Source: Rhizophagus irregularis
Taxonomy: Eukaryota > Glomeromycota > Glomeromycetes > Glomerales > Glomeraceae
Direction of reading: 5' to 3'
Assembly (NCBI RefSeq): GCF_026210795.1
Contig: NC_089440.1
Location: 1,426,001 to 1,490,000 of the forward strand
DNA length: 64,000 nt
A program made the translations under genes and the position numbers. Position 1 is the first letter of the stretch, and every line of letters begins with the position of its first letter. The notes beneath the pieces were generated by a model. That model was not told where the DNA came from. It saw nothing but the letters and a program-made list of their open reading frames with translations, and searched no databases. Positions 1 through 27,047 of the stretch are shown here, one piece after another.

Positions 1-741
1 TTGTCTCCTGTTATGGGTAGTATGCCTCCAGCTGATATAGAGGAGGAAGATATCTTCAAATATAGACAATGAAGATGTATCAAGACAAGGTAAACTATAA
101 AGATTATTTTTCTATTTATTTATTTATATTTATCAAACATCTAACTTTTTCCTTTATCTGCTTAGGCTATAATCAAATAATGTACTACTACTGTAAATCA
201 AGTTTATAACCACCAGATGATATCGTTAGGAGCGATTTGGATTTCATCTGAAAATTCAATAAATTTCGCAGATATTATCAAAATTCAACAAAAATTATTT
301 ATTGCCTACTTTATCAATTTCGGAGGAAAATCTCATGAAAATTTTGCAGAACAAATTAATCAATTCTTAGATGATAACTGAAGATATTGTAATTCAAGAA
401 TTTAATGAATAGGGTGATAGCGAACGGGATGAATTTAAAGGAAAAATATATCACGAACTTTTCTTAAAGCGACTATCTTTGGAATTACTATATATTAAAG
501 TCGTTGGAATTTGCAGAGAAGGAAGAAATTGACATTGGAGGATTGATTAATCAAGAAAAACCGAAGAATAAATTTCAATTTTAAAGGAGACATGACAAAA
601 TATTTAGAGCAATATACATTATTTTTAATCAAACGGTCGCTGGACAATCGACGAAATTGGCGATGGCTTTTGAAATGTGGTCGAATTATTTTAAAAAGTA
701 ATCTGTAATTATGTTATGACGGGATGGGAGGGTATGTTGTA
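1..741. repeat. Dispersed repeat A, copy 1
   Basis: Nearly identical, in direct orientation, to 5723-6450: both begin with tgtctcctgttatgggtag and run on with small indels. It carries coding-like pieces such as MPPADIEEEDIFKYRQ and FADIIKIQQKLFIAYFINFG. These are broken by stop codons, several of them shared by both copies, so it is a duplicated gene remnant or part of a mobile element. The left end may lie outside the window. I do not recognise the protein. Confidence 0.8.
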
Positions 742-1024
742 CGCAGAATATTTCATCAAAATAATCCTAAATTATTCAGTTTTATAAATTAAAATAACAA
801 TTTGAACTTTTTGAACTTTGTTTTTTTTGAAACTTGAAATTATTTTTGTCTGTCAAATTATATTAGAAAAATATACTTAACGGGTATCAAAGCTTGATCG
901 ATTTTTGATCGATTTATTGATTCATCGATTCATCGATCAAAAATAACAGAAGAGCATTAATTAAGAAAAATGGATTAGAGGATTTGGATAGAGATTTAGA
1001 ATTAATGATTATAATTAGGGATTA
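742..1024. repeat. Dispersed repeat B, copy 1
   Basis: Matches 8133-8450 in the same orientation, from cgcagaatatttca through the palindrome-rich part (aagcttgatcgatttttgat) to aatgattataattaggga. Here it follows repeat A without a gap, whereas the second copies of A and B are about 1.7 kb apart. No coding capacity was seen. Confidence 0.75.
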
Positions 1025-1187
1025 CTAATTCTCACACTCATACTTTTTTGATTTTTGAAATAAATTATTCTACTCATATCTATAAAATTTTCATTTATCT
1101 ATATTGTATGTGTATGGTATGGTTTTTTATTTATACAGTATAATTTTTTTATATACTAAAGTTACTTTAAATCTTCCTAATTTCTAA

Positions 1188-1302
1188 CCCAAGCAAATCC
1201 TAACCCTAATACTAACATTAATCCTAATCTTAATATACCTATCTTAATATACCTTAATCCTAACCTAGTACTAATTCTAATCTAACTCTAACCCCAATAG
1301 AT
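1188..1302. repeat. Degenerate telomere-like (CCTAA)n tract
   Basis: The tract is built from variants of the hexamer CCCTAA: cctaaccctaatactaac, ttaatcctaatcttaat, cctaacctagtactaattc, then ctaatctaactctaacccc. Filamentous fungi usually have TTAGGG telomeres, so this looks like a decayed interstitial or former subtelomeric repeat. It lies directly 3' of the minus-strand nuclease ORF. Confidence 0.6.
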
Positions 1303-1314
1303 GCAACGAGGGAC

Positions 1315-1869
1315 TTATTTATTATCGATGTAGACGTTGTATATTAATAATTCTATATTTTTATTTTCAATATTAATTTTTTTATTATTAAAATGTATTC
1401 CCTTAATAATTATTTCAGTAGTAAGTTTTATTTTTTGTTTCTTCATTTTTATATCACGTATTTCATGGATATTATTTAAATCAAATAAATATACATTTTC
1501 TTGTTTACATAAATCTATTATACCTGATGGTACATGTTTAATTATATCTGTAATAATTATTATTGGTATTGCTTTTAATCTTAACGCTGCCTCCTTTACT
1601 TTATACACATTCCTTGCTTCTAATAATGATTTATTTAATACATATCCTTTACATTCAATAACCACTACACTCCCTTCTTTATTTATTCCAAATATATCAA
1701 TTCCTTCATCACCCATTACCTTAGGCTGATTCCATATTCCTTCGATTTTTGGTCGCTTCCATGTCGTTTTTGTTTTTCTAAGATTTAATTTTTGAAGATT
1801 TCCCAAAATCATATTTTGCCATGTTGGCTGTATTTGTAACCTATCAAAATCTGATTTTAATCCTTCCAT
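1315..1869 (-). CDS. PD-(D/E)XK (Mrr-like) restriction-endonuclease-fold protein
   Basis: This is a 184-aa ORF with the core of a PD-(D/E)XK nuclease: GDEGIDIFG (D58), then VVVIECKGY (E72-x-K74), then a helix (LLEARNVYKVKEAALRLKA) and a hydrophobic strand IPIIIITDI. That order of strand, ExK, helix and strand is what Mrr-type DNA-cleaving domains show, so metal-dependent DNA cleavage is inferred. The N-terminal 50 residues are basic and have no clear domain. The ATG lies only 2 nt after the stop of an upstream coiled-coil ORF in another frame. In a fungus this suggests one gene split by a frameshift or an unrecognised intron, a bicistronic message, or decay. Function in the fungus is unknown. 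Confidence 0.6.
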   Translation of the reverse strand: MEGLKSDFDRLQIQPTWQNMILGNLQKLNLRKTKTTWKRPKIEGIWNQPKVMGDEGIDIFGINKEGSVVVIECKGYVLNKSLLEARNVYKVKEAALRLKAIPIIIITDIIKHVPSGIIDLCKQENVYLFDLNNIHEIRDIKMKKQKIKLTTEIIIKGIHFNNKKINIENKNIELLIYNVYIDNK

Positions 1870-1871
1870 TT

Positions 1872-2312
1872 TTATTTAATATAGATACTTGCAATTCTTT
1901 CAAAGTGCCCTTCTATTTCCTGAGTAAGGTTTTCAATTTCACTATATATTTTTTGTTCTAATGGTGTAAATCCACTAAGTAATGGTCTCAATACTTTTAA
2001 AAATTCATACCGTCGCGTCCTTTTTATTTTTAATTTTTCAATTTCATTCTGTATTAATTTTTTTCTATCTCTTCGCCTTACTGTTTCATGTTCTCCTTCA
2101 TATTGATATGACATTGAAGATACTTCACCGTACTCTTTGTTTTCTTCATTTAACAATTCTTTATATTTATTATTAATCCAATTTTCACAATTTTCAATAC
2201 TCAATTGTACTCGTGTTAATTCTTTTGTTGCTTGTGTCCTTAAATTTTCTAATTTAAGAAGCTCTTTTTCTTGCTCTTCAATCTCTTTACGAATTTTTTG
2301 TAAATTATTCAT
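1872..2312 (-). CDS. Coiled-coil protein directly upstream of the Mrr-like nuclease
   Basis: A 146-aa, highly charged ORF. Residues about 1-60 are heptad-like (EIEEQEKELLKLENLR), followed by a polar linker with SSMSYQYEG, a basic stretch (RRRDRKKLIQ) and a second helical part ending ERIASIYIK. No catalytic motif is visible. It ends in TAA two nucleotides before the ATG of the nuclease ORF at 1869, and both read leftward. Most plausibly it is the N-terminal dimerisation or targeting half of the same protein, but the frames differ and no phase-matched splice pair that keeps its tail was found. It could also be a separate small protein. Confidence 0.5.
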   Translation of the reverse strand: MNNLQKIRKEIEEQEKELLKLENLRTQATKELTRVQLSIENCENWINNKYKELLNEENKEYGEVSSMSYQYEGEHETVRRRDRKKLIQNEIEKLKIKRTRRYEFLKVLRPLLSGFTPLEQKIYSEIENLTQEIEGHFERIASIYIK

Positions 2313-2510
2313 TTTTATTTTAAATTACCTTAAACTTTTATTTTAAACCCGAAACTTATTTATCAAGTCATAAGATTGAAACTTTAAAAATGATGTAAAT
2401 TGGGTGTATCGTTACACTATGCAAAATCTTCAACGCGACAAAAAGAAATTCTTTAAACAAAAAGGTCTTTGTATTTGAAGAATTAATTCAAATGCTGGAC
2501 ATTGCCTAGT

Positions 2511-3524
2511 ATGTCAACCTCTATACCTTATAATCCCAAAACCGCCGCCTTGTTGGTCATTGACATGCAAGTAAGTCGTTGAAATTATTATTCCTAAAAT
2601 TTGCGCCTTTCTAAATAATGACACTTTAGTAGGAAATCTTTCGTAACGATGCTACTGATATTATTCCAAACGTACAATCTCTTGTCAAATCTTGTCATGA
2701 GAAAGGTGTTCCAGTTTTTTGGACTCAGCATGGTCACAGAAATCCTGAATTCGATGGAGGTGCTTTGGGACGATGGGTACGTGATAGTATTTTCTATTTA
2801 GCTATTTAGTAAACACTAAAAAAAATTATTTCTTTTAAGTGGGGAGATAGGCTGATCAAATGGGGATCTGACGAATGGCAAATTCTAAAAGAAATGCAGC
2901 CGTTTGTTTCTGTCAGTGTTCAATTATTCTCCAAAAATTCGAATCGGATATGATAATATTTAATATTCCATTTCGAATATTTGTACCTACTTGTCTTTTT
3001 TCCGTTTCTCTTTAGAGATCTCAAACTTCACTTGATACCCTGGACTTCATCATCAAAAGCAAAACGCGTTATGATGCTTTCTACAAGACTGAACTTAACT
3101 CTTTGCTTATCTCTCTTGGTATTGAGACACTCATCATTTCTGGCGTCAGGACAAATTTATGTTGTGAGACAACTGCCAGAAGTGAGTACAATGTATCTTT
3201 AACATTATATATAGAATTATTTATGCATAGTGAAAAGAGAAATTTGTCTGATCATATTATTATGTTGCAAATTTTTTAGGAGGATTTGACAAGAATTATG
3301 ATATTGTATTCATTAAAGACGCGACTGCTACAGAAAATCAAAAAATGCACGAGGTAGGCACGCGTTTTTCCATGCAAATATTAATTTTAATATTTTTATT
3401 AATGTCAAATTACTAAATACTTTTTTGTCAATAGGCAACTCTGTTGAATATGGAGTATGGATGGGCAAAAATCGTTACTGCTATTGACGTTATTGAATGG
3501 CTTGCACACATCGGGAAAACATGA
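2511..3524 (+). CDS. Isochorismatase-like cysteine hydrolase
   Basis: Six exons (2511-2570, 2633-2776, 2840-2911, 3016-3181, 3280-3353, 3435-3524) join in frame to 201 aa. The isochorismatase-fold triad is present: D18 in LLVIDMQ, K108 in KSKTRYDAF and C141 in VRTNLCCETTAR. The family hydrolyses amide or vinyl-ether bonds through a cysteine thioester (isochorismatase, nicotinamidase, N-carbamoyl hydrolases). The substrate cannot be read from sequence. No signal peptide is seen, so it is probably cytosolic. The fourth intron (3182-3279) is the least certain: family members usually have a few more residues between TTAR and GFD, so a small exon may be missed. The gene lies between the two copies of the duplicated segment but looks intact. 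Confidence 0.88.
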
Positions 3525-5622
3525 TTGTAGAATATATGGACATTTTAATGATTAGATGGGACATTTTAATAATTAATAGTCATTAGATCGCAAAGTATTC
3601 ACTAGATCAACTGTAAAATTATCGTTCACACCAATCGAACTATCATTTTTTTTTTTATTATATTTATCACGTGACATTATTTAATGGTTTTTAGTTTATA
3701 TGTTTCTCTGGTTTTTACCTTGTTTTCTATTCTACAATATTTCTATGATTTCTAGACGAAAAACAAAAATTACATGTAGTTGTCTAATTTTAATGAAAAT
3801 AAGACTTTAAAAATTATCATTAAATACATACTATAGCATAAATCTTTTCCAGCCATTTTGTGATTTTATGTTCCATTCTTTTTTCAAATGTTAAATGCAT
3901 ATGTAAGATCAGAAACCTTTTTACCGACACGATTTGCTAGGCATTCATCCATTCAGAGAAAGTCTTACTGCATCAAATTGAGCATTACTTATAATGAGAG
4001 AGATAAAATATTTAACAATAGAGCGTTTACAGATAACAGTCCTACAAATCTTAGTTCGCACGTGATCACTGAAGTATGATATAAATATAATGGATAATGA
4101 TCTACGTGCCCTCGTTTTTTTTTCACGCACAATTCTCAATTGCAGTAATGCTACAAGTATTAAGTATATAAAGATATATATTCTTATTCACCATAGTAAT
4201 CCATTATGTGATTGAATTAAAAGAATATGGGCAGTCAATAGCTCATTGCACAAACAAAGTACGATCAAACTCAGAATTAGGATGTATCGAGTTAAAAGTT
4301 ATTACATATTGATGACAAAACAAATTAATTGGAATTCGATTACATTAAATCATCACATTGTACCCATCCGTTCAGCAAATAACAAATATGTACATTAAAA
4401 TGGATACTTAAATATGTATTGTATGTCACTTAAATTATATTATCATAAATCAAAAAAATTATGGATAAACAAACAATAATTATATGTTTATGAAGGTAAT
4501 TAATGCTTAAATAATTTATTTTATTATATTACTTTATTAACAATTAAAAAAAAAAAATAATAATTTCTACGCACTCCTTAGTGAATCTGTGAGAACTGTT
4601 GCAGGTCCCTCTTTCTTAACCATAATGTTCAAACTCTTCCTTATATGTAAGTTACGATCTGTCATATCTTCGAGTTTTGCCTTACCGCACTGCTTAACCT
4701 CTGAGATTACCAAATACCCGTCTCAACATAACATGTAGACTTATTTATTTCATAAATCAGCCGTACATTTTAATGGTTATTATAAATCAAATTTAAAATT
4801 TTCATATATTAAATCCTTCTAGTACTATCAGAATGGAAAATGTACCCTGGGTATTATACAATTTTTAAGCCAGGTATTTTGTATTATACCCGGGTATCTT
4901 AAGCAGTGTGGTACGGTAGAGGTTTTCTTTTCATCCTTTAAATTTTATAGATTTTATTAGCAAATTTTTAAAGGATATTCAATTTAAATATAACTGAATT
5001 ATATAATCTTCTTATACAAATTATAGATATGGTACGCCAAGCACAATTAAACTGACGGAATCAGAAATTCAAAATGCAACTAATATTAAGATGATTGTAA
5101 TTTTTTTAATTTATGATGATGATTTTATACAATCATTTTAAAGGGCCTCTTATGAAAGTCTATCGGAAAAAAATGGACGAATTAAGTTGTACAGTACAAC
5201 CTTTGGTTTAGAAAGCGATACAATCAACTTATTCAAAAAGAAAATCCGAGAATTTCCGTGATGTGTTATTAATGATAAACTGGATGATGGAACAATAGAT
5301 GCTTATATTTAGAATACATATTCTTATTTTATTTTTAAATTTAGATACTAGTTTAATTTATCATGATAATTATTTGATAAATTGATATAAAGAACACTTT
5401 ATATCGGTAAAGCGTTCTTAAGTTTGGAAAAATTATATAAAATAAGTGGTATTCATCTATTACCAAGCTTTAATTAGATGGCACCAAAGCTTTGGATATA
5501 TCTAAGACAATCGGTTCCAGATTTTTTTTTTTCGCATTATGAATTTAAAATTTAAGATAATACAATTTACAATGGTCCCGCTTATTAAGGCGGTAGAAAT
5601 GTCAACATTCATTATCATTAAG
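3525..5622. other. AT-rich intergenic stretch
   Basis: No supported gene. Open frames at 3888-4139 occur on both strands and have biased, low-complexity composition. The only structured element seen is the inverted-repeat element at 4679-4922, listed separately. Confidence 0.6.
4679..4922. repeat. Foldback/MITE-like element with inverted ends
   Basis: The left end gccttaccgcactgcttaa and the right end ttaagcagtgtggtacggta are imperfect inverted repeats about 200 bp apart. The interior has no ORF and contains ccctgggta/acccgggta motifs; related tacccgg motifs recur near 6452 and 6552. I could not define a clean target-site duplication, so the class is open. Confidence 0.45.
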
Positions 5623-5735
5623 TGTGCCAGCAGCTGCAGCTGCTCCAATATCGTATGATCGGTCACCAATTCCAGGACAGATGCCTCCTGCAATGCCACC
5701 GGGTATGGCACCTAGACAGGTATGTCTCCTGTTAT
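5623..5735 (+). pseudogene. Proline/methionine-rich coding remnant (SmB-tail-like)
   Basis: Reads PAAAAAPISYDRSPIPGQ then MPPAMPPGMAPRQ in one frame. It runs into repeat A copy 2 with a one-nucleotide shift before MSPVMGSMPPADIEEED. The PPGM-rich composition resembles the C-terminal tail of spliceosomal SmB proteins, but the Sm fold itself is absent and no start codon fits. Treated as a decayed fragment; the SmB link is a guess from composition. Confidence 0.35.
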
Positions 5736-6450
5736 GGGTAGTATGCCTCCAGCTGATATAGAGGAGGAAGATATCTTCAAATATAGACAATGAAGATGTA
5801 TCAAGACAAGGTAACTATAAAGATTATTTTTCTATTTGTTTATTTATATTTATTAAACATCTAACTTTTTCCTTTATATGCTTAGGCTATAATCAAATAA
5901 TGTACTACTGTAAATCAAGTATATAACTACCAGATGATATCGTTAGGAGCGATTTGGATTTCATCTGAAAATTCAATAAATTTCGCAGATATTATTAAAA
6001 TCCAACAAAAATTATTTATTACCTACTTTATCAATTTCGGAGGAAAATTTCATAAATTTTGCAGAACAAATTAATTCAATTCTTAGTTGATAACTGAAGA
6101 TATTGTAATTCAAGAATTTAATGAATAGGGTGATAGCGAACGGGATGAATTTAAAGGAAAAATATATCACGAACTTTTCTTAAAGCGATTATCTTCGGAA
6201 TTATTATATATTAAAGTCGTTGGAATTTGAAGAGAAGGAAGAAATTGACATTGGAGGATTGATTATTCAAAGAATAAATTTCAATTTTAAAGGAGATATC
6301 ACTAAATATTTAGAGCAAAATACATTATTTTTAATCAAACAGTCGTCGGATAATCGACGAAATTGGCGATAGCTTTGAAATATGTGGTCGAATTATTTTA
6401 AAAAGTAAATCTGTAATTATGTTATGACGGGAATGGGAGGGTATGTTGTA
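5723..6450. repeat. Dispersed repeat A, copy 2
   Basis: Second copy of the segment at 2-741, same orientation, differing by scattered substitutions and short indels. It follows directly on the proline-rich remnant at 5623-5735, suggesting that this copy keeps more of the original gene than copy 1 does inside the window. Confidence 0.8.
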
Positions 6451-7200
6451 AAATACCCGGAGCAGTCGATATAAGCAGAGCTGACAAATAATTTCGGTCA
6501 CCGGACAATCAACGAAATTGGCGATAGTAAATCTGCAACTATATTATGACAAGAATGGGAAAATACCCGGGGCAATCAAATAAGCAATGCTATGATGTAG
6601 CATCCAAGCTTAAAAGGTTGTGGCTTTGGGCTTTACCACCTTGCCAGAAACGTATGATCCTTACAGTATTGGTCATGAACTACAAGACTTGATTGACCTA
6701 TATGGCTTGGAATCTTTCGTACTTCTTTCTAGTAATTTTACAACTTCCGCCAAGCGTTTAAACATTGAAATTTAGAACTTTCGATACTGTTGGACCAAAT
6801 CATATTCATTGGTCATATTATTACTTTAAATTTTCGCGTTTTTATTTTTGAATTATGCCAATAGTCTTGTGGTCTTTGACCGAAAGTCATTTAAAAAAGG
6901 TGATATATTGATATACTGATATGACCTAGTTATTTTCGAAACTCCAAAATCTTGTTGATATGAAAATACCTCTTAATCAGTGGGACTGGGACATGTCCTT
7001 GGATGGGACGGGACGGGACAGTCCAGGACTTGGACAAGATGTTGTTGATGTCCGGGACAAAAATTCATTATAAGAGGATATATGATTTATATATAATATT
7101 AATAAATTGGACAATGTTTTAGACGGGACGGGACGGGACAAATGAAATTGGATTTGGACAGGACATCGAAATTTTGTGGGACACTGTCCTGCGGTAACCA
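6451..7200. repeat. Repeat-derived stretch with GGGAC-rich block and a coding remnant
   Basis: Two related pieces, aaatacccggagcagtcgat (6452) and aaatacccggggcaatcaaa (6552), suggest another decayed element. At 6623-6775 a + strand frame reads FTTLPETYDPYSIGHELQ and about 30 further residues to a stop, without a start codon; I do not recognise it. From 6980 to 7195 the DNA is dominated by GGGAC/GGAC units, with (GGGAC) runs at about 7004-7019 and 7126-7140. No functional gene is supported. Confidence 0.45.
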
Positions 7201-7305
7201 TATGTTAATGCTATTTGTTTTTGGTCATGATCACATTAGTTTTAAACCGAAGCAGTTGATTAGTTAGAAAAAATGGGACAGCTAAAACTTGGGGGGAATT
7301 CAGTT

Positions 7306-7333
7306 GATGTAGATGTAGATGTAGATGTAGATC
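7306..7333. repeat. (GATGTA)n microsatellite
   Basis: A hexanucleotide GATGTA is repeated about four and a half times, followed by gatcttcg. Confidence 0.8.
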
Positions 7334-7397
7334 TTCGATTTTCTTTTTCAATAGTAAAATTCGAGTTATGAATTTTAGCACTCGTTGCAGTCGTATA

Positions 7398-7480
7398 CTC
7401 CGTATAACTGGGCATTATTGGAGGGGAACCTGCAGATCATCCAGTAAAATTTCGTATAACTGGGTATTCTTGAAGGATGG
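7398..7480. repeat. Paired tataactggg motif, possible pogo/Tigger terminal remnant
   Basis: cgtataactgggcattattgg at about 7401 and cgtataactgggtattcttg at about 7453 form a short direct repeat. Such tataactgg(g/t)cattcttgg strings are common at the ends of pogo/Tigger-type elements, so this may be a terminal scar. No transposase is present. Confidence 0.3.
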
Positions 7481-8132
7481 ACTGCGATTTCTATATTTGC
7501 AAGTTGTAACTGATCCTATTTATAAGGAGATGATTATGACGCTCCTTTTAAACTACTACAATGATATTTCTTATCCATCTACCAAAATACCAAAATTTAA
7601 GTATAATAGAAATCAAAGAACTCTATAATTGCCTATTTCTTTAATATTGTCAAACTGTTGTATAGTATCCATATAGTATCCATTCAAATATTAGTAATTA
7701 CGGGGCGGTAACATTTAGTTTACATCAGTCATTATAGTAGTAATATAATAAATAGTTATTGGATGAGGGAATCGAAGAATTTATAGTTTTGTTATTAGGA
7801 ATACTGCGGTGACCAATAGAAATTAATGCTACTAATACTGATTTTAATGGATGTCTCAAAAAAATACTGGTCAGAAAAAAGTAAAATTCCCGCATATTCC
7901 TAAATCCTAATCGACTGAACAATAAAGTATTTCCTTTCATTATAAAAAGTAATAATTTTATTAAGTATGCCTAGGGATGATTCTAGAACTTTTAACTATT
8001 TAGGATTATACAAATATTATTTTACAAAGGATGCAAAAAGCGTTAAACCATCCTCCATCCTGATCGATGATCGGATGATTTTAAAAAATGATTGTCTAAT
8101 TTGACGATCAAAACAATGATTAACTTATTTAT

Positions 8133-8450
8133 CGCAGAATATTTCACCAAAATAATCATAAATTATTCAATTTTATAAATAAAAATAACAATTTAAAACT
8201 TATTGAATTTTGTTTTTTTGAAACTTGAAATCTGTTAAATTATAATACTTATCAGGTTAACTTAAAGATTCTGATCAATCAAAGCTTGATCGATTTTTGA
8301 TCGATTTATTGATTTATTCATCGATTCATTGATCAAAAATAACAAAAGATAAAAGATTCGCATAATAATTAATTAGAGAAAATGAATTTAGTTTAGTTTA
8401 AGGATTTGGATAGAGATTTAGAATAAATGATAAATGATTATAATTAGGGA
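8133..8450. repeat. Dispersed repeat B, copy 2
   Basis: Second copy of 742-1024 in the same orientation, including the tcaaagcttgatcgattttt core, with about 30 nt of extra sequence by indels. Confidence 0.75.
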
Positions 8451-8521
8451 GTATTGATTATAATTAGAGATTATTTGATTAAGTTAGATTAAGTTAGGAA
8501 AAGTTAGGAGGTTGATAAATT

Positions 8522-8684
8522 GTGTCACGGGGTCCCTTAATGTAACAGTGAGTATTAACATACGAACTGGCCGGAATTAACGTTAACGCTATCGTGTGTA
8601 AGTGCATAACTCCCAAACTCGGGGCCAGTTCATTTGTTAAATATCGTACACCCACACTGTACGTTAAGGACGCCCTTGTGTCAC
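8522..8684. repeat. 163-bp imperfect palindrome (MITE- or cruciform-like)
   Basis: The left arm (gtgtcacggggtcccttaat ... catacgaactggcc, 8522-8572) pairs with the right arm (ggccagttcatttgttaaat ... aaggacgcccttgtgtcac, 8624-8684), allowing small gaps. The loop is about 50 nt. The stretch is richer in G+C than its surroundings. A 65-aa minus-strand frame across it is explained by the fold and is not called as a gene. Confidence 0.6.
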
Positions 8685-8699
8685 ATCCCAACTGTACTT

Positions 8700-11600
8700 A
8701 ATGGGCATACCCGAAAAAATAAATCCGCTAAATGCGTTATCTGTTACCATATTTCTTTGTTAAGGTTTATTGTTGTATTACGCGATGATGCAATGGACAT
8801 TTATTAAAAAAGACCTATTATGTAAACCTGTTACTGTACCGAGTAACTTTTTTATTGCAAGAAAAAAAAAGAAAATCAAAAGTTATGAAATAACCTAAGC
8901 CCTCTATGATACCGGACTTGATGAAAAAAAATTAAACCTATTGATATCGATTGATAATTCATTGATATCGGATTTGAAGGAGAAAACATTGAAGATTATA
9001 AATTAATAAACTAAGTCCGTTTGATAACGGCGGACTCATTCCGTCATTTCCGTGTATGATTTATTTCGTAATGATATTAATTATGATCAAACGATAAAAT
9101 TTTCAAAGAATATAACATTCAACCGGTTTTTTTTTTTGTACCAAGCTAAGCTTTTTTTTCTTAATAAATTATAAATTAATAAAAAATTATTGAATTTTTA
9201 TTATAAATTCCGATGAAGAAATAACATTGTTCAAAAAAAAAATTAAATTTCAATATTAAAAATAGAAAAATTATTCTAAAAAAAGGTACATACTTACATA
9301 CTTTACATAGTAAAAAATTTAAAAATAAAAGCAATTTTTTATAAAAAAAAAAATTATTTAATACTAATTTAGGATATTGTAAACAAACAAAAACGACAGA
9401 TGACGAAAAAATAAATAAATTAAAAAAATTTTTGTCAATTTTTTTTTTTGTAACTTTTATGAATTATGATTTATTTATAGAAAAATTTCAAAAAAACTAA
9501 AATAGTTAATACAACATTTAAATTTTATATCATTTTTATGGGTCATGGGATCAAACCAAAATTGTCAATAAACAAATTTGACGAATATGGTAACTGATGA
9601 CGAACTGTTGTTAATTTTGTTAATTTTAAATATTAATATAAGTCTGTTTAATTAGGTAAAGTTTAAGATTTTATCGTGTCAATCGTGACACCAAATTCAT
9701 GAAGATCAATTCCGAGAAACTTGAGGCTAAATATATACATCAGATTTTAGAGATTAGAGAGGTTACTAATTATGGAACCAATCGTGTAAGATAGCCTTCT
9801 CATGCATATCATATGAGCGAAAAACCGGTCAACCCTTCAACGATAAAAAGGAATAATAAGCGGAATAAACGGAATAAACGGAATGAAAAAAAAAAGCATT
9901 AAACGTTTATACTCCATTACCAATTAATAATCATTATAAAAAATTACTAAAAGTATTATAATTGTTAATTAACAGGGGAAGGAAAAGGTTTCATTTATTA
10001 ACAATTGTTCGATATTTTTGGTTTAATCAAAGAAAATTTTATGCCAAATAAGTAAAATGTATATGGAGAAAAAAAACAAACATGTTTTTTTTTTTCGAAG
10101 ATTATACATTACATTGAGGTTTAATTTTGTAAAGATTTTCTTAATATAACAGATACAATATATTTTTGATACTTTTGAGTAAATTGAAGATATTACGCAA
10201 TCATGCAAAAGATATCTGATATCTCTGGGAATCATATGTATTTTAATGACTCGGGGAAGGAGTAATAATATGACGTAACTTTTAACCAAATAATTAAGGG
10301 GTCCATGATTTGACCCGATTAAACACGTCGTCATATTTAATAAAACTAATACAAATTGGGAATCAAATTATGCAGTTAAATTCTCCGAGAATTTTCCGTA
10401 AGGATTCTAAATTTGAGAACCAATTATTAACAAGCCACATTGTAATTGTATTAATTGTAATTATAACAAATTCTGACGTTTTTCTGTTCTAATTTTCCGC
10501 GACTACCATTTAATTTTTTAAATGAGAATAGACTAAAAGATTCTGGATACACAGTAATACAGCATTAATGTATCTTGATAACGTGGTTTATGTGGATAAA
10601 AACGTGGTTTAACTAATGACTTATGATGCATAAGATATTCTTCTTCTTAAAATAGACTAAATTCTAATAAACAAAAAATTCAAAAAAAGTTAGATAAAAT
10701 AAAAAAGAAATTCTAGATCAAAAAGAAAACTTGTCAAAGAATGTAAACATATTAAAACATTTTTAAATTAATTAACTCATTATTATATAAACAATTTCAT
10801 AAGCAAAAATTTCATAAAACAATCTTATAAAACAATTTCTAATAAACTCTCATAAACAAATACTCTCATAAATCATTTCATGTACCCTTTTTCATAGATA
10901 AACTTCTTTATTTATAATAAAACTTCCATTTTTAACCAAAATGAAAAACTTTAAATTAATTAATTAATTGTATCTAAAAAAAAATGATATCTAATCTATA
11001 ATATTGTTTCGGAAAGCAAATATTTGTTGGGTCGGTGGTTTGCATTTGGACATTGTTGTTTCAAAAAAATCTTAACTTATAAAAGTTAAGATCTTAATGT
11101 TAATGATCTTTTTTAGGAATCTTTTAAAATTAAAATTTCCTTATTCAATAATTCTCATACAACATCATACAAATTATCAATTTTATCAAATAATAAATTA
11201 GTAATTAATTTTTATCTAATCATTGTTTTTTTTTTAATAAAGTTTATGGGTTAAAATGAATAAAATGAATAAAATAATAAATATTAAAAATTTCATTAAA
11301 AAGTACCGTTAAAAATTATTGCGGTCAAAAAAAATTTCCTTTTTCAATAATTTTCATATAATCACTCAAGTTACTCAAAAGAAATGATTTACTCATATAT
11401 GACAAAAAAATCCGGGAAGAAAATCTTTTACTAAAAAGACAATAATCTTGAAAAAGTAATAGAAAGATAATAAATTCTTGTAAAAAAGAAATAATGGACA
11501 TTAACTTTTTTTGCTTTTTTTTTGCCAAGAATTTTATGAAAAAATTTAAGCCAAGAATTTTATGTAAATTAAGCCAAGAATTTATGTAAAAATTAATAGA

Positions 11601-12505: not shown

Positions 12506-13082
12506 ATGTCAGCTACAACTTGTAAAGTAATGGCGACTGTTGCTAACGATCTTTTAACCTCACCACCAACTTCTTTCTCTCTTTCTTCAACGATAATAAA
12601 AACTTTGGTTGTAGATGATAATATAATAACTGGCAAAATCCTCGCTAAAATTTTGGAAAAAGAATTTAATCATAAAGTAAAATGTGTTGTAAGTGGTAAT
12701 GAAGCTTTGGAATTATTATCAAATGAAATGTTTGATATCGTCTTCATGGATATTGATATGCCAAAACAGAATGGAGTTGAAACTTGTATTAAAATTCGTA
12801 ATACATCAATCGTATTAGAAGAAAACAGAAAAATTCCTGTTCTTGCTTATACAACAAATCCATGGGAAGAAAGTTTTGACCAAGCAGGAATGGTAGGTTT
12901 TTAAAATTATTATTTTTTTTTTAAAAAAAAAGTTATTATTATTATTTAAATATATTAGAAATAAAAATATTTATAAAATTTCTTTATTATTATTTTTCTT
13001 TTAGAATGGTTATATCGCTAAACCAGCTTCTTCAGCCAAAGTTCAAGCTGAACTAGAAAAAGTTTATCAAAATATATTATGA
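12506..13082 (+). CDS. Stand-alone response-regulator receiver protein
   Basis: Two exons (12506-12892 and 13005-13082, intron gtaggt...ttttag) give 154 aa. After a serine/threonine-rich leader (1-29), residues 31-153 form a CheY-like receiver with all key residues: D37-D38 in LVVDDN, phospho-acceptor D82 in FMDIDMP, T116 in LAYTT and K135 in YIAKPAS. There is no DNA-binding or kinase domain, so it should act in a His-to-Asp phosphorelay like fungal single-domain or Ssk1/Srr1/Rim15-type receivers; which pathway is unknown. The conserved lysine is encoded only in the second exon, so correct splicing is needed. It stands alone, with several kb of gene-free DNA on both sides. Confidence 0.88.
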
Positions 13083-17307: not shown

Positions 17308-18597
17308 TAGGGTTGGTAAAATAACCGTTAGTTATGAATTTGGTTAATTAACCGGTTAATTAACGGTTAGTTAACGGTTAATTAACCCATAAATAACCTG
17401 TATATATAATTTTAAGGAAGTTAAAATAAATTTATAATTTATTAAATATTATAAAATTTTAATATATTTTATTTATTCTTCATCATCTAAATTAATAACA
17501 TTTGCTTCAAATCCAAATATACTATCATTATCAGAACTATTATTATTATCATCTTCTTTATTTTCATTATCAGAACTATTATTACTATCTTCTTCATTTT
17601 CATTAAAATTACTACCCATTTAGCTGTATTTAGGCATTCTTCACCAGAATAAATAGCATCAAAGAATAATGGTTTTGGAGTACAAATAACAAAATTTTGA
17701 ACTGATTCTCGATTAATATTAGACCAACCATCTGAAACCATTGTAAGAGATTTAGCTTGTAAAATTTGTTCATTACATTCAGCTTTAACTTCATCAAAAA
17801 CATCATCAAGTAATTCATCAGCAAGTTTTCTTCGATTAGGTAATTTGAATGCTGGACGTAATTGTTGAAAAAACTGAATAACATAATTATTTTCAAGAAA
17901 AGAAAAAGGAACTCCAGCAGCAAATAATGCTTGAGCTAGTAAAATTTCAAGAGTATCTTGTTCTTCTTCACTCATACGATCAACAAAATTCTCAATTGTT
18001 GTATTTTTTAAATGCTTTTTTGATGTTTTTACTGTAGGAATAAAAGTAGAAGTAGTAGCATCAGAAGTTTCTAATAGTTCAGGAATTTGTTGTTTCTTTG
18101 TTTTTGCACTTTCTGGAGCTCTATGGACAACTATCATTAAGATGAACTTGCATTCTTTTAGCTGTACCTTGTTCAAAAACTTTAGAACAATAATTACAAC
18201 GTACAGAAGGATGTGTTTTTTTCTTAGACCTACTACTTTCTTCATTACTTTCTGCTTCAGTAATTATTGTCCAATGTTTCCAAACAGTTCCCTTTTTTTT
18301 TACCATGATAATGAACAATAAATTTGCAAAAAAAAGTGTTTTTTTAAAAAAAATTTATCTTAAAAAAAAGATCATGCAATATGTAGATCATAGATTTAAT
18401 CAATATTTATATTAATTAATATTTAATTGTGTAACAAAATAATGGATTATCATTTAATCACATGATTTAAATTCTGCATTTTGATTGGCTAATTATAAAT
18501 AACGGTTAATTAACCATTTTAAATCAATCATAACTAACAAAATTAACGGTTAATTAACCATGGTTAATTAACCGTGGTTAATTAACCCCCATCCCTA
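17308..18597 (-). mobile_element. Internally deleted hAT transposon with 8-bp target duplication
   Basis: The element starts tagggttgg and ends ccatcccta (imperfect terminal inverted repeats) and is flanked by ATTGTACC on both sides (17300-17307 and 18598-18605), the 8-bp duplication typical of hAT elements. ATTGTACC is also part of the host satellite unit. Both subterminal regions (17335-17400 and 18500-18590) carry many copies of ggttaattaacc, likely transposase binding sites. At 1290 bp it is far shorter than a full hAT element and encodes only part of a transposase, so it should be non-autonomous. Confidence 0.9.
17467..18306 (-). pseudogene. Truncated BED-finger hAT transposase
   Basis: Starting at the ATG near 18306, the first ~60 codons encode a BED-type zinc finger: CNYCSKVF with C-x2-C, then a histidine in QVHLNDSC. 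A one-nucleotide shift near 18125 then moves the frame to a ~165-aa stretch with RMSEEEQDTLEILLAQALF and MVSDGWSNINRESVQNF, the start of the DUF659/RNase-H-like part with the first catalytic aspartate (SDGW). It breaks off after ECLNTAKW (about 17620) and continues, in another frame, as an acidic tail (EEDSNNSSDNENKEDDN) ending in TAA near 17480. The middle of the catalytic domain and the C-terminal dimerisation region are missing, so the product cannot be active. Confidence 0.85.
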
Positions 18598-23120: not shown

Positions 23121-26100
23121 ATGAGCGATAAAGATCGCTCTGGAAATTCAAAAGGCTCACAAGCCAACGAAAAGTCTAGTAAAAAATCAAAGAATTCTGC
23201 AGAAGGTAGCAGTAATGGAAATAATAGAAATGAGATACCATTTCAAGGTTTATCACCAGAAACTCAAAAACTTATAGAATCAATAAAAAATAATAATAGT
23301 AGTCCTAAAAGAAAGGATGTCCCTAATTCTATGGTGGAAGAAATTTTAAGGGAGGCTAAATTGAAAGCTGCTAGTCGTGGGATTGATATTAATCATGGAA
23401 CAAAATCTTCACGCGATGAAAACCGTAAAAACAGCAAGCATATCAAACCAATACCTTCAGTAGTTGCTTCTTCAAGTAATTTTGCTGGTCATAATGATGA
23501 TATTTTATCCGAATTAGATCATGATGATATAATATTAAAACATGGTGCCAAGGATTCAGGTTCTTTCATGTCAGATGAATTTGATGATAAAATAAAATCT
23601 AAAAAAATCAGTGAGGAGCAACAACAACAACAAAAAACGGATATTACAAAAAATAATGGTGTATCTCAACCAAATCGTTCACAATCACGTTCATATTTAC
23701 CAACTCGTTTGGCAAGTTTAATAGGGATTGGCACCGGTGATAATAATGTAACCGATGAATCGAATTCTAATGCTGATAATAACAAAATAACAGTAGATAA
23801 TTCTTCAAAACCGAATATTGAAGAACCTTTTGAACTTGAAAATGATGACAAAAATGTTAATGTTAAATCTTTGGATTCTTCCAATAAAAATAATAATTCA
23901 AAAGATGGACCTGGTGTAACAATTGATACTAATGTAGAACGTTCTAATCGTAAAGAACAACGTTATATAGTAAGACCTCGTTTAACCAAAAAAAGAGCCG
24001 TAATACGTCGTGCTAGTGCTAGACTTGTTCAACCCTCGAGTAATGATTATCAACGTTCCTCAAAGTCTCCCCTCAAGACTGTGGAGATATCAAATAATGA
24101 ACTGGATGAAATCAATGCTCAATTTGAGGAAACATTAAATCAATTTTCAAAAAGGTACCAGGATTCAACAGTTGCACTTGCTGAAAAGTCTCATTTATTA
24201 AAAAGGAACCAAGAATTACATCATAATCTTGCTTCCAAAGAGGAAGAAATTGAATATCTTAAAAATGAATTATGGGAGGCTGGAAATAAAATTCAGAATT
24301 ATGAATCTGATTTAAAGGATATCATTGAACAACAACTAGAACCTCTTACACTTACTCATGAAGACTTAGTAAGAATAGAAAGAGAAATGGAAGATCAAGA
24401 AGTACTAATTGGTGGTTATCAGAAGGAGAATGATAAATTGGTCAATGAAATAAAAAGTTTGAATGAACGGTTAAGAATTTCGGATTTGGAACAAGAAAAA
24501 CAACTTAATAAAACTCATGAGTTATATGGAGAAATTGATCATTTGAAGGAATTGTTATATGAGAGAGAAACTCAAGAGACTGTACCAGAAGGAACTATTC
24601 AACAGATTGATGAATTAAAGAAAGAGATTGAACGGTTGAAAGAGAAGGAAAAAACTTACGAATTTAAGGAACTTGCTTTAAAGGGAATGGATGATTTGAA
24701 AAAGGAGTTGAGTGATCTAAGAGATAGGGAAAGTGAATATATGATTAAAATTGATGATATGGAACATCAATTATCATTAGCACGTGATGAAATTGATGCT
24801 GTGTCTCAGGAAAGAATGGAATCGTTAGAAAAAATGACGGAAGAGATGAACATCATGAAATTTACTTATGAATCACAAATTGAAGGTGTTAAAAAGGATG
24901 TGATTTCAAAGGACGGACGTGAAACTCGTTTCAAAAAATTACAAGGTGCTATTGAAAAAATTGAAAGCAAGTTGAATTCAAATCCGGAAATAACTCAGAT
25001 TTGTACCGATTTACGAAGGGGCAATTTACTTCCTCCAAAGAAGAGACGCAAGTCTGCAGCGGATGGTTCTAAAAATATCAAAGAACCAACTACACCACGT
25101 TCTCCTACAACAAAGACTCTCAAAAAAGCTACATCACAATCTTCTTTAGGTGGAATGTCACGTGCTAGCGCCGTAACTAGTCCCACACCTTCAGTTTTAT
25201 CCAGTGTAAGTGCTTTTAGCGGTAAGGATGATCTCATGGATTTACAAGAAGATGACCTCATTGATATTACTAATGAAGAATTTGCTGAAATGAAAGTTAA
25301 ACTCATGAAAAGTGAAAAAGAAAATCAATCTTCACGTGAGACCATTGAAAAATTAGAGGATGAATTAAAATCTTTACAAGAAATAAATATTAACCTTGAA
25401 AAGGAACTAGAAACTTTGAAAAAAGATCACGCTGAAAAAAAAGAACATTATGAACAAAAAATGCGTGAGATGGAAGAACTTTTATTGGAACTTCCTTCTG
25501 CCGATTCAACAGAAAACAGTATGGCCGCCAATAACAATCCAATACCTCCTCAACCTGCACCAAATTTAATACAAGATTTAGAAACTAAGCAAAAAATTAT
25601 TGAAGAATTAGTGGGTAAATTAAAAAGAAAGGAAGAACAGTTAGAATATTACCAAAATGCTTACCTTGAAAAAACTGAAGAATTTGAAGAATACGTTGAA
25701 AAGGTTAAGAATGCAAACCAATCATCTACAAATGGTGGTACGGCAGTTGTTAATGCGGGTGCCTCTACTGCACCTAGTGGGACCGAGGTTACACCTAACT
25801 TTGACGCTTTTAAATTTCTTAGTGATGCTTTATCTTTTGATGATGGAATTGGAGATCTTTCTTCTTTACCTATCACTAGTGATATTATGGGACTTTTTGG
25901 AGGTCTTGGTGACAACCAAGAAATATCAGTTATCGAGAAACTTATTGCTCAACTCGAACGTACTATTGTTGAAAGAACGATGCAACTTGGTGCTGCTCAC
26001 CAACGAGCTAGTGACGCTGAATCTAAATTATTAGCTCTCTCTCGAGAAAAAATGTCTTGGGGAAGTGGGTATGATACCACTGTTAAACAACTAAAGGCAC

Positions 26101-27047
26101 AAGTTGAGTATTTACAGGAGTTATTACAGATGGAAAGAAAGGTAGCGAGGAAAGAAATGAGTGATGGAACAATTTCAGGTAACGATACAACGAAATCATC
26201 AAATGAATCAAAAGTTGAACAAGTTACAAAGTCAACTCCAGTTTCAACAATGGATATTCAAAAGCTTCGAAGCCAAATTGAATCGCTCACCGCTGAAAAT
26301 ATTACATTAAAGGCTGAACTAACCACATCCGAAGCAATTAGACAAGCTATTCACGAAAATACATTGACCATTTTACAACAGACCACCAAAACTAATCTTG
26401 CCACAGATGAAGATATAGCAGGATTAAGGTGTCAATCAATGGAAAAAGAGGCAGAAATCAATGTCTGGAAAGGAAGATGTACTGGTTTAGAAAACGTTGT
26501 TGAACGTCAACGTGAGTTACTTACACTCGTTGTACCTTCACTCCCAGAAAATAAAGCCTTAGATGGAAAGACACGTGACATAACAAAAATTCTTGCGGAT
26601 GATGGAATTGATTCTAAAGTAATTGAAGGTTTAAATGAAACTGCAAGGAAGCTTGTCCAACAACTTCGGGAGGAGAATGCAATTTTGCGACAAACTATCG
26701 TTGCTCGTCAACAAATAATAAATAAAAAGGTTGAGACTCCATCAGCACCGATTCCCGTTAATCCTACTACCACATCAACAACCGTACAACTTGAGATTCT
26801 TGCAAAACAAATTTCTGAGATTGAAACACGTTTCACGAAAAGAGAAAAGGAATTACAAGATATAATAGTAGAAACAAAACGTCAAGGTGAATTACAACTT
26901 GAGCGATGGAAAGCAAAATGGGGAGCCGTAATTGATAAGAAAAATTCTGAAATAAGAGGTTTTAGAAATGAATTAGAATCTTTAATGAAATGTTTGGGGA
27001 AATTGGACTCTGTTAAAGTAAATGGGAGTGATAATGGCGTTATATAA
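23121..27047 (+). CDS. Large coiled-coil protein, CEP162/QN1-like in part
   Basis: A single 3927-nt exon encodes 1308 aa. The open frame extends 12 nt upstream to a TTG, but the first ATG is at 23121. The N-terminal ~320 residues are polar and probably disordered, with a basic cluster (RPRLTKKRAVIRRASAR, near residue 290-305). Long coiled coils cover about 330-620, 730-860 and 960-1290. A basic PPKKRRK signal lies near residue 638 and could be a nuclear import signal. The stretch HEDLVRIEREMEDQEVLIGG followed by YQKENDKL recalls CEP162/QN1-type centrosomal proteins; this is from memory of the family and is tentative. There is no CAP-Gly, motor or ATPase motif. Absence of introns is unusual beside its intron-rich neighbours. 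A structural, cytoskeletal or spindle-pole role is inferred. Confidence 0.8.
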   Translation: MSDKDRSGNSKGSQANEKSSKKSKNSAEGSSNGNNRNEIPFQGLSPETQKLIESIKNNNSSPKRKDVPNSMVEEILREAKLKAASRGIDINHGTKSSRDENRKNSKHIKPIPSVVASSSNFAGHNDDILSELDHDDIILKHGAKDSGSFMSDEFDDKIKSKKISEEQQQQQKTDITKNNGVSQPNRSQSRSYLPTRLASLIGIGTGDNNVTDESNSNADNNKITVDNSSKPNIEEPFELENDDKNVNVKSLDSSNKNNNSKDGPGVTIDTNVERSNRKEQRYIVRPRLTKKRAVIRRASARLVQPSSNDYQRSSKSPLKTVEISNNELDEINAQFEETLNQFSKRYQDSTVALAEKSHLLKRNQELHHNLASKEEEIEYLKNELWEAGNKIQNYESDLKDIIEQQLEPLTLTHEDLVRIEREMEDQEVLIGGYQKENDKLVNEIKSLNERLRISDLEQEKQLNKTHELYGEIDHLKELLYERETQETVPEGTIQQIDELKKEIERLKEKEKTYEFKELALKGMDDLKKELSDLRDRESEYMIKIDDMEHQLSLARDEIDAVSQERMESLEKMTEEMNIMKFTYESQIEGVKKDVISKDGRETRFKKLQGAIEKIESKLNSNPEITQICTDLRRGNLLPPKKRRKSAADGSKNIKEPTTPRSPTTKTLKKATSQSSLGGMSRASAVTSPTPSVLSSVSAFSGKDDLMDLQEDDLIDITNEEFAEMKVKLMKSEKENQSSRETIEKLEDELKSLQEININLEKELETLKKDHAEKKEHYEQKMREMEELLLELPSADSTENSMAANNNPIPPQPAPNLIQDLETKQKIIEELVGKLKRKEEQLEYYQNAYLEKTEEFEEYVEKVKNANQSSTNGGTAVVNAGASTAPSGTEVTPNFDAFKFLSDALSFDDGIGDLSSLPITSDIMGLFGGLGDNQEISVIEKLIAQLERTIVERTMQLGAAHQRASDAESKLLALSREKMSWGSGYDTTVKQLKAQVEYLQELLQMERKVARKEMSDGTISGNDTTKSSNESKVEQVTKSTPVSTMDIQKLRSQIESLTAENITLKAELTTSEAIRQAIHENTLTILQQTTKTNLATDEDIAGLRCQSMEKEAEINVWKGRCTGLENVVERQRELLTLVVPSLPENKALDGKTRDITKILADDGIDSKVIEGLNETARKLVQQLREENAILRQTIVARQQIINKKVETPSAPIPVNPTTTSTTVQLEILAKQISEIETRFTKREKELQDIIVETKRQGELQLERWKAKWGAVIDKKNSEIRGFRNELESLMKCLGKLDSVKVNGSDNGVI

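Follow-up and report, generated by a model that had tools for sequence, protein, structure and literature searches.

Two minus-strand frames separated by two nucleotides in Rhizophagus irregularis: a probable coiled-coil protein and a divergent Mrr/Hjc-like nuclease-like protein

The described nucleases closest to the locus reported here are those with the Mrr catalytic domain (Mrr_cat, PF04471), the fungal RRG7 proteins (PF10356) and Hjc (PF01870), the archaeal Holliday junction resolvase, whose residues D33, E46 and K48 in structure 1gef are given in an excerpt of PMC1913061. Coiled coils are paired with nucleases in the CoCoNuTs, or coiled-coil nuclease tandems, which an excerpt of PMC11090510 presents as prokaryotic McrBC-type systems. 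Two ORFs on one fungal mRNA, and a restart of translation after a stop, also have precedents. Passages of PMC4503453 describe polycistronic mRNAs in Agaricomycetes, with a mean inter-ORF distance of 364 nt, and passages of PMC10352335 describe IGG6 re-initiation, which uses a 9-bp element from G. lozoyensis.

We analyzed a stretch of 64,000 nucleotides of R. irregularis DNA (C12:1426001-1490000, hereafter the window) and searched the genome to which it belongs, 146,748,485 bases in 32 contigs. Near one end of the window, two ORFs lie 2 nt apart, which is unusual for a eukaryote. The second frame, ORF2, resembles this genome's own Mrr_cat and RRG7 genes (C16:188725 and C15:524567) in having a G-[IV]-D...(E/Q)-C-K core in register with theirs, but neither family profile is listed for it. 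Its D-to-E spacing of 14 is close to the 13 of Hjc in 1gef, but it scores below the 21.1-bit cut-off of that family and, on visual inspection, shows no obvious glutamate for motif I. As in the CoCoNuTs, a coiled coil may be paired with a nuclease here; the CoCoNuTs, however, are prokaryotic, and neither ORF1 nor ORF2 showed a McrB GTPase or another part of such a system, in scans that took in some of the neighboring genes. The 2-nt spacing is also far from that of the Agaricomycete polycistrons, and the present locus lies in a Glomeromycotina-like genome, with a shared transcript that we infer.

Two coding frames on the minus strand

The earlier note on this DNA had described two minus-strand ORFs in different frames, 2 nt apart, in a fungal genome. 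The fungal assignment is supported, and the coordinates, lengths and spacing of the frames are all correct. In window coordinates, the features of the locus are:

1872..2312, minus strand: ORF1, a probable coiled-coil protein of 146 aa, longer than chance and marked by helical periodicity and codon usage
1315..1869, minus strand: ORF2, a divergent Mrr/Hjc-like PD-(D/E)XK nuclease-like protein of 184 aa (D58, E72, K74)
1870..1874, minus strand: the junction, stop TAA plus a 2-nt spacer AA before the ORF2 ATG; the two frames share a single open base, 1875
1851..1888, minus strand: a candidate in-phase intron of 38 nt, CAA-GTATCT...AATCAG-ATT, which would fuse the frames into 319 aa
2313..2510, no strand assigned: a divergent intergenic region of 198 bp, shared with an isochorismatase-domain gene; a candidate promoter, by position
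1099..1299, no strand assigned: a copy of a dispersed repeat with a degenerate CCCTAA tract, ending some 16 nt beyond the ORF2 stop and outside the unit

The TAA of ORF1 (1874-1872) is followed by two A's and then by the ATG of ORF2 (1869-1867). Both ORFs begin in the context AAAAATG, and across their 330 codons the junction is the sole interruption.

Both frames are longer than expected by chance, and each looks coding right to the junction. Thirty 64-kb sequences simulated with a third-order Markov model gave no ORF of at least 146 aa; the longest frame in them reached 141 aa. GC content falls across codon positions 1, 2 and 3 in ORF1 (0.395/0.245/0.156) as it does in ORF2 (0.351/0.222/0.162), with overall values of 0.265 and 0.245, respectively, and 0.271 for the window. 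Codon usage was scored with a table that was built on 16 long ORFs and leaves out ORF1 and ORF2; in each of seven segments, two of which overlap, the true frame was the best of the three forward frames. The final 45 codons of ORF1 reach 5.2, a value that none of 2000 Markov sequences attained, and the opening 14 codons of ORF2 reach 3.1, where the two remaining forward frames give -1.3 and -0.2. The final 49 codons of ORF2 reach just 2.1.

Upstream of ORF1, an isochorismatase-domain gene (Pfam E 4.7e-37) runs divergently from position 2511. Five introns of 62-104 nt could be placed in it; with its Pfam domain and these introns, this neighbor is an ordinary fungal gene. Codon scores computed for its exons without phase correction were set aside. 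Searched with DNA and with protein, the genome yielded one copy of the ORF1-ORF2 pair, a count that is a lower bound, and the DNA search gave one further match, 52 nt at 85%. An Rfam search of window positions 1-9000 returned no match.

Predicted proteins

We consider it likely that ORF2 contains a PD-(D/E)XK domain, to judge from its sequence; nuclease activity is less likely than the domain itself. The nuclease reading as a whole is likely, yet weaker than the earlier note put it. That note had pointed to D58...E72-x-K74, that is, the motif II aspartate and the motif III (D/E)-x-K of the PD-(D/E)XK fold. The three residues are present at these positions, but the motif alone is not significant: the pattern D-x(8,18)-[ED]xK occurs in 13782 of 20000 shuffles of ORF2 (69%), which is chance level. 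A stricter motif, which was picked with ORF2 already in view, turns up in 85 of 20000 shuffles. Of 512 frames, ORF2 and the RRG7 gene are the only two to contain it; the second Mrr_cat gene, added as a control, does as well. The helix-1 glutamate of motif I is not evident in ORF2 by eye.

A genome search with PF04471 identified two genuine Mrr_cat genes, one of which is RRG7; ORF2 was not among them. We aligned the RRG7-like gene with the second Mrr_cat gene (alignment A1) and compared ORF2 with the result using hhalign. The score was 24.2 with the catalytic columns in register, at a probability of just 4.8% and a P of 0.008. None of 400 shuffles reached this score (shuffle maximum, 22.1), and ORF2 ranked first among 128 frames of at least 90 aa, the next scoring 20.9. 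Two overlapping loci, L002 and L032, are in both the 512-frame and the 128-frame sets, so a few frames are counted twice.

Of the aligners tried, only the profile aligner set ORF2 apart. By Smith-Waterman, its similarity to the two Mrr_cat genes was not significant (reached by 465 and 208 of 2000 shuffles). A two-sequence HMM placed it sixth of 513, that is, the 512 frames including RRG7 plus the added control, with both controls and three unrelated frames ranked above it. In Pfam, Hjc was the only profile listed for ORF2, with an E of 0.088 (13.2 bits) for the whole frame and 0.013 (15.9 bits) for a trimmed core, both below the 21.1 bits for membership in PF01870. When the genome was searched with the Hjc profile at E 1, there was no match, and ORF2 was missed too. 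Mrr_cat and RRG7 (PF10356) were unlisted for the whole frame at E 1 and for the core at E 10, in searches whose HMMER filters drop weak matches.

ORF2 had no match in PHROGs, NCBIfam or PADLOC at E 1, and a sequence search of the PDB gave none for ORF2 at E 1 and none for the core at E 10. Single-sequence structure models were poor (pLDDT 36 and 48), and in the fold searches MspJI came at ranks 10 and 14 with an E of about 1. What stands of the Mrr-like assignment is a divergent Mrr/Hjc-like signature recovered by profile alignment, with Pfam scores below the cut-off and a putative fold.

The second genuine Mrr_cat gene besides RRG7 (C15:524567-524878) is an open frame of 307 aa with a Pfam score of 29.6 bits. 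Its domain had no match among the plasmids searched, and the frame had none in the PDB.

ORF1 is probably a coiled-coil protein. Its hydrophobic power at a period of 3.45-3.65 residues was reached by none of 2000 shuffles of the whole frame; for residues 1-70 the count was 7 of 2000, and for residues 71-146 it was again zero of 2000. This range of periods does not tell heptads from a plain amphipathic helix. The coiled coil proposed for ORF1 in the earlier note thus has indirect support from strong helical periodicity. Searches of PHROGs, NCBIfam and PADLOC gave ORF1 weak matches only, the best in PADLOC being JetC at E 0.0097.

Readings of the junction

We favor a reading in which ORF1 and ORF2 are two cistrons on one mRNA, joined by stop-restart translation, with a probability of about 0.45; its rivals, an intron or a broken gene, are still in play. 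The grounds for it are that both frames are beyond chance and coding up to the junction, that the junction is their sole interruption, that the two frames close at nearly the same point, and that AAAAATG stands at both ATGs. One transcript would carry both cistrons, the coiled-coil protein first and the divergent PD-(D/E)XK nuclease-like protein second. The ribosome would terminate at the ORF1 stop and re-initiate at the ATG two bases on. Both products would then be made together, with the coiled coil assembling, tethering or restraining the nuclease, and the pair might cut or repair aberrant or foreign DNA. We infer the shared transcript, the re-initiation, the partnership, the nuclease activity and the role in DNA cutting or repair alike. 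It is also possible that ORF1 and ORF2 have two separate transcripts.

Re-initiation after a frame of 146 codons is generally inefficient in eukaryotes, which counts against stop-restart translation. Published experiments bear on the two-cistron reading in both directions: in the passages of PMC10352335 cited above, re-initiation across the 9-bp element is shown in yeast, but a stop codon without that element gave no second product, and this counts against the reading.

If the two-cistron reading is true, a native mRNA with 2-nt spacing would mean that an early-diverging fungus uses stop-restart translation to make two partner proteins, and the coupling of a nuclease to a coiled coil would make repair, or defense against mobile DNA, a candidate role. 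Its most far-reaching form would be a eukaryotic nuclear two-gene operon, with stop-restart across two bases, an orphan Mrr/Hjc-type nuclease with a coiled-coil partner, and perhaps a fungal counterpart of restriction-type genome defense. We regard that combination as a long shot. If the locus is instead spliced or broken, it would be an ordinary gene with its family unassigned.

The geometry of the junction bears on several of these readings. In the ORF2 frame a stop lies at 1876-1878, and the ORF1 stop occupies 1872-1874; the two frames have a single open base in common. We simulated single random breaks in 18 ORFs of at least 184 aa, ORF2 itself included, over 7200 trials. A gap of 0-10 nt arose in 269 trials, and such a gap combined with at most three bases open in both frames, a criterion set after seeing the case, arose in only nine. 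With one shared open base and so few simulated breaks of this form, frame-shifting decay, sequencing error and programmed frameshifting would each need a coincidence. Of the possibilities that the earlier note had listed, frameshifting is therefore disfavored, and by eye the junction contains no canonical -1 slippery heptamer. Stop-restart translation, also on that list, holds up as a serious possibility.

The rival that survives best is a single gene in which an intron removes the stop, yielding one protein with a coiled coil and a nuclease-like part; we think this unlikely, though well worth weighing. Fusion by splicing would account for the proximity of ORF1 and ORF2, and the isochorismatase neighbor does contain introns. 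There are 16 in-phase GT-AG candidates of 30-250 nt, including ones of 38, 80, 92, 167 and 170 nt. The 38-nt candidate, GTATCT...AATCAG, would retain nearly all of the coding sequence (319 aa), and its donor shares with the GTATGA donor of the 170-nt candidate the top score on a crude consensus (5 of 6). However, all five introns of the neighboring gene have a G at +5, and four of the five begin GTNNGT; the 38-nt candidate lacks this G and is shorter than any of them (62-104 nt). The splice suggested in the earlier note, AAA-GTATTG...ATACAG-CCA, is indeed in phase. It spans 167 nt, and its donor, at 1994, lies about 120 nt ahead of the stop where the note gave about 110, but this candidate and the 170-nt one would cut out 40 to 45 codons of ORF1 with coding-like scores.

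Somewhat less probable again is a single gene that was recently broken, or an assembly error, with the frame shifted at the junction. A sample of 216,019 bases, with 78 ORFs of at least 80 aa, contains three tight same-strand pairs, ORF1-ORF2 being one, and the two others resemble broken transposases, in one case on visual inspection alone. Should the assembly be that of PMC10234402, the quality value of 36.27 given in an excerpt of that report corresponds to about 0.24 expected errors in 998 nt. Against this, a single shift would have to hit the one base that is open in both frames, a geometry as rare as the nine simulated breaks above.

The two other tight pairs can be described briefly. The first (L019, minus strand, 4154-5292) has a Pfam MULE transposase domain, looks broken and mimics a stop-start pair. 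The second (L023, plus strand, 559-1440) appears by eye alone to be a broken transposase and has no Pfam match.

Origin and surroundings

The least probable reading is a two-gene cassette of bacterial, viral or mobile origin, acquired horizontally: operon-like spacing, an Mrr/Hjc-type motif and nearby repeats speak for it, but the GC content and codon usage of ORF1 and ORF2 match the local DNA and the genome yielded one copy (a lower bound), and we give it very little credence. The earlier proposal of a mobile or acquired unit is not supported on these grounds, nor by relatives or position, as no relatives were found in the collections scanned and the unit lies outside the duplicated flanks. 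In R. irregularis strain 4401, the giant-virus insert has a GC content of 36.58%, according to an excerpt of PMC10640383, compared with 27.1% for the window.

Searches that included pattern scans, which reach close relatives only, found no relatives of ORF1 or ORF2 in viral contigs or plasmids and none in phages, where a single unrelated chance match appeared at E 2. A scan of the same reach with ORF2 only found none in prokaryotic genome contigs. Further genome copies, looked for as a sign of a mobile element, were not found beyond the one copy, itself a minimum count. Seventeen neighborhoods around further copies of the 1099-1299 repeat, together with loci L023 and L032, held no relative of either frame (best E outside self, 2.0). 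Literature searches found nothing linking Rhizophagus irregularis, restriction endonuclease-like and HGT, nor RRG7 with Mrr; for Rhizophagus and polycistronic, no title among the matches listed was on this subject.

Arbuscular mycorrhizal fungi have repeat-rich genomes, and repeats flank the present locus. The telomere-like tract pointed out earlier exists, but it is part of the dispersed repeat at 1099-1299 and separate from the ORF unit. A 2-kb query gave 32 genome matches, 25 of them on this repeat, and roughly half of those fell on the CCCTAA part alone. By eye, four other copies carry TATACAGTATA-like ends. The sequence suggests that the repeat may be a small non-autonomous element with telomere-like insides.

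Duplicated segments are likewise present, as had been proposed, pairing 2-724 with 5723-6432 and 742-1030 with 8133-8459, but the ORF unit lies outside them rather than within. Identity across this nearby duplication is 87-100% in ungapped blocks of at least 92 nt, and about 1.7 kb interrupts the second copy. Elsewhere in the window, positions 23121-27047 hold an open frame of 1308 aa with no Pfam match at E 0.01, 17490-18245 a DUF659-type fragment below the cut-off (E 3.1e-5), and 12506-12901 a response-regulator receiver domain (E 2.9e-15).
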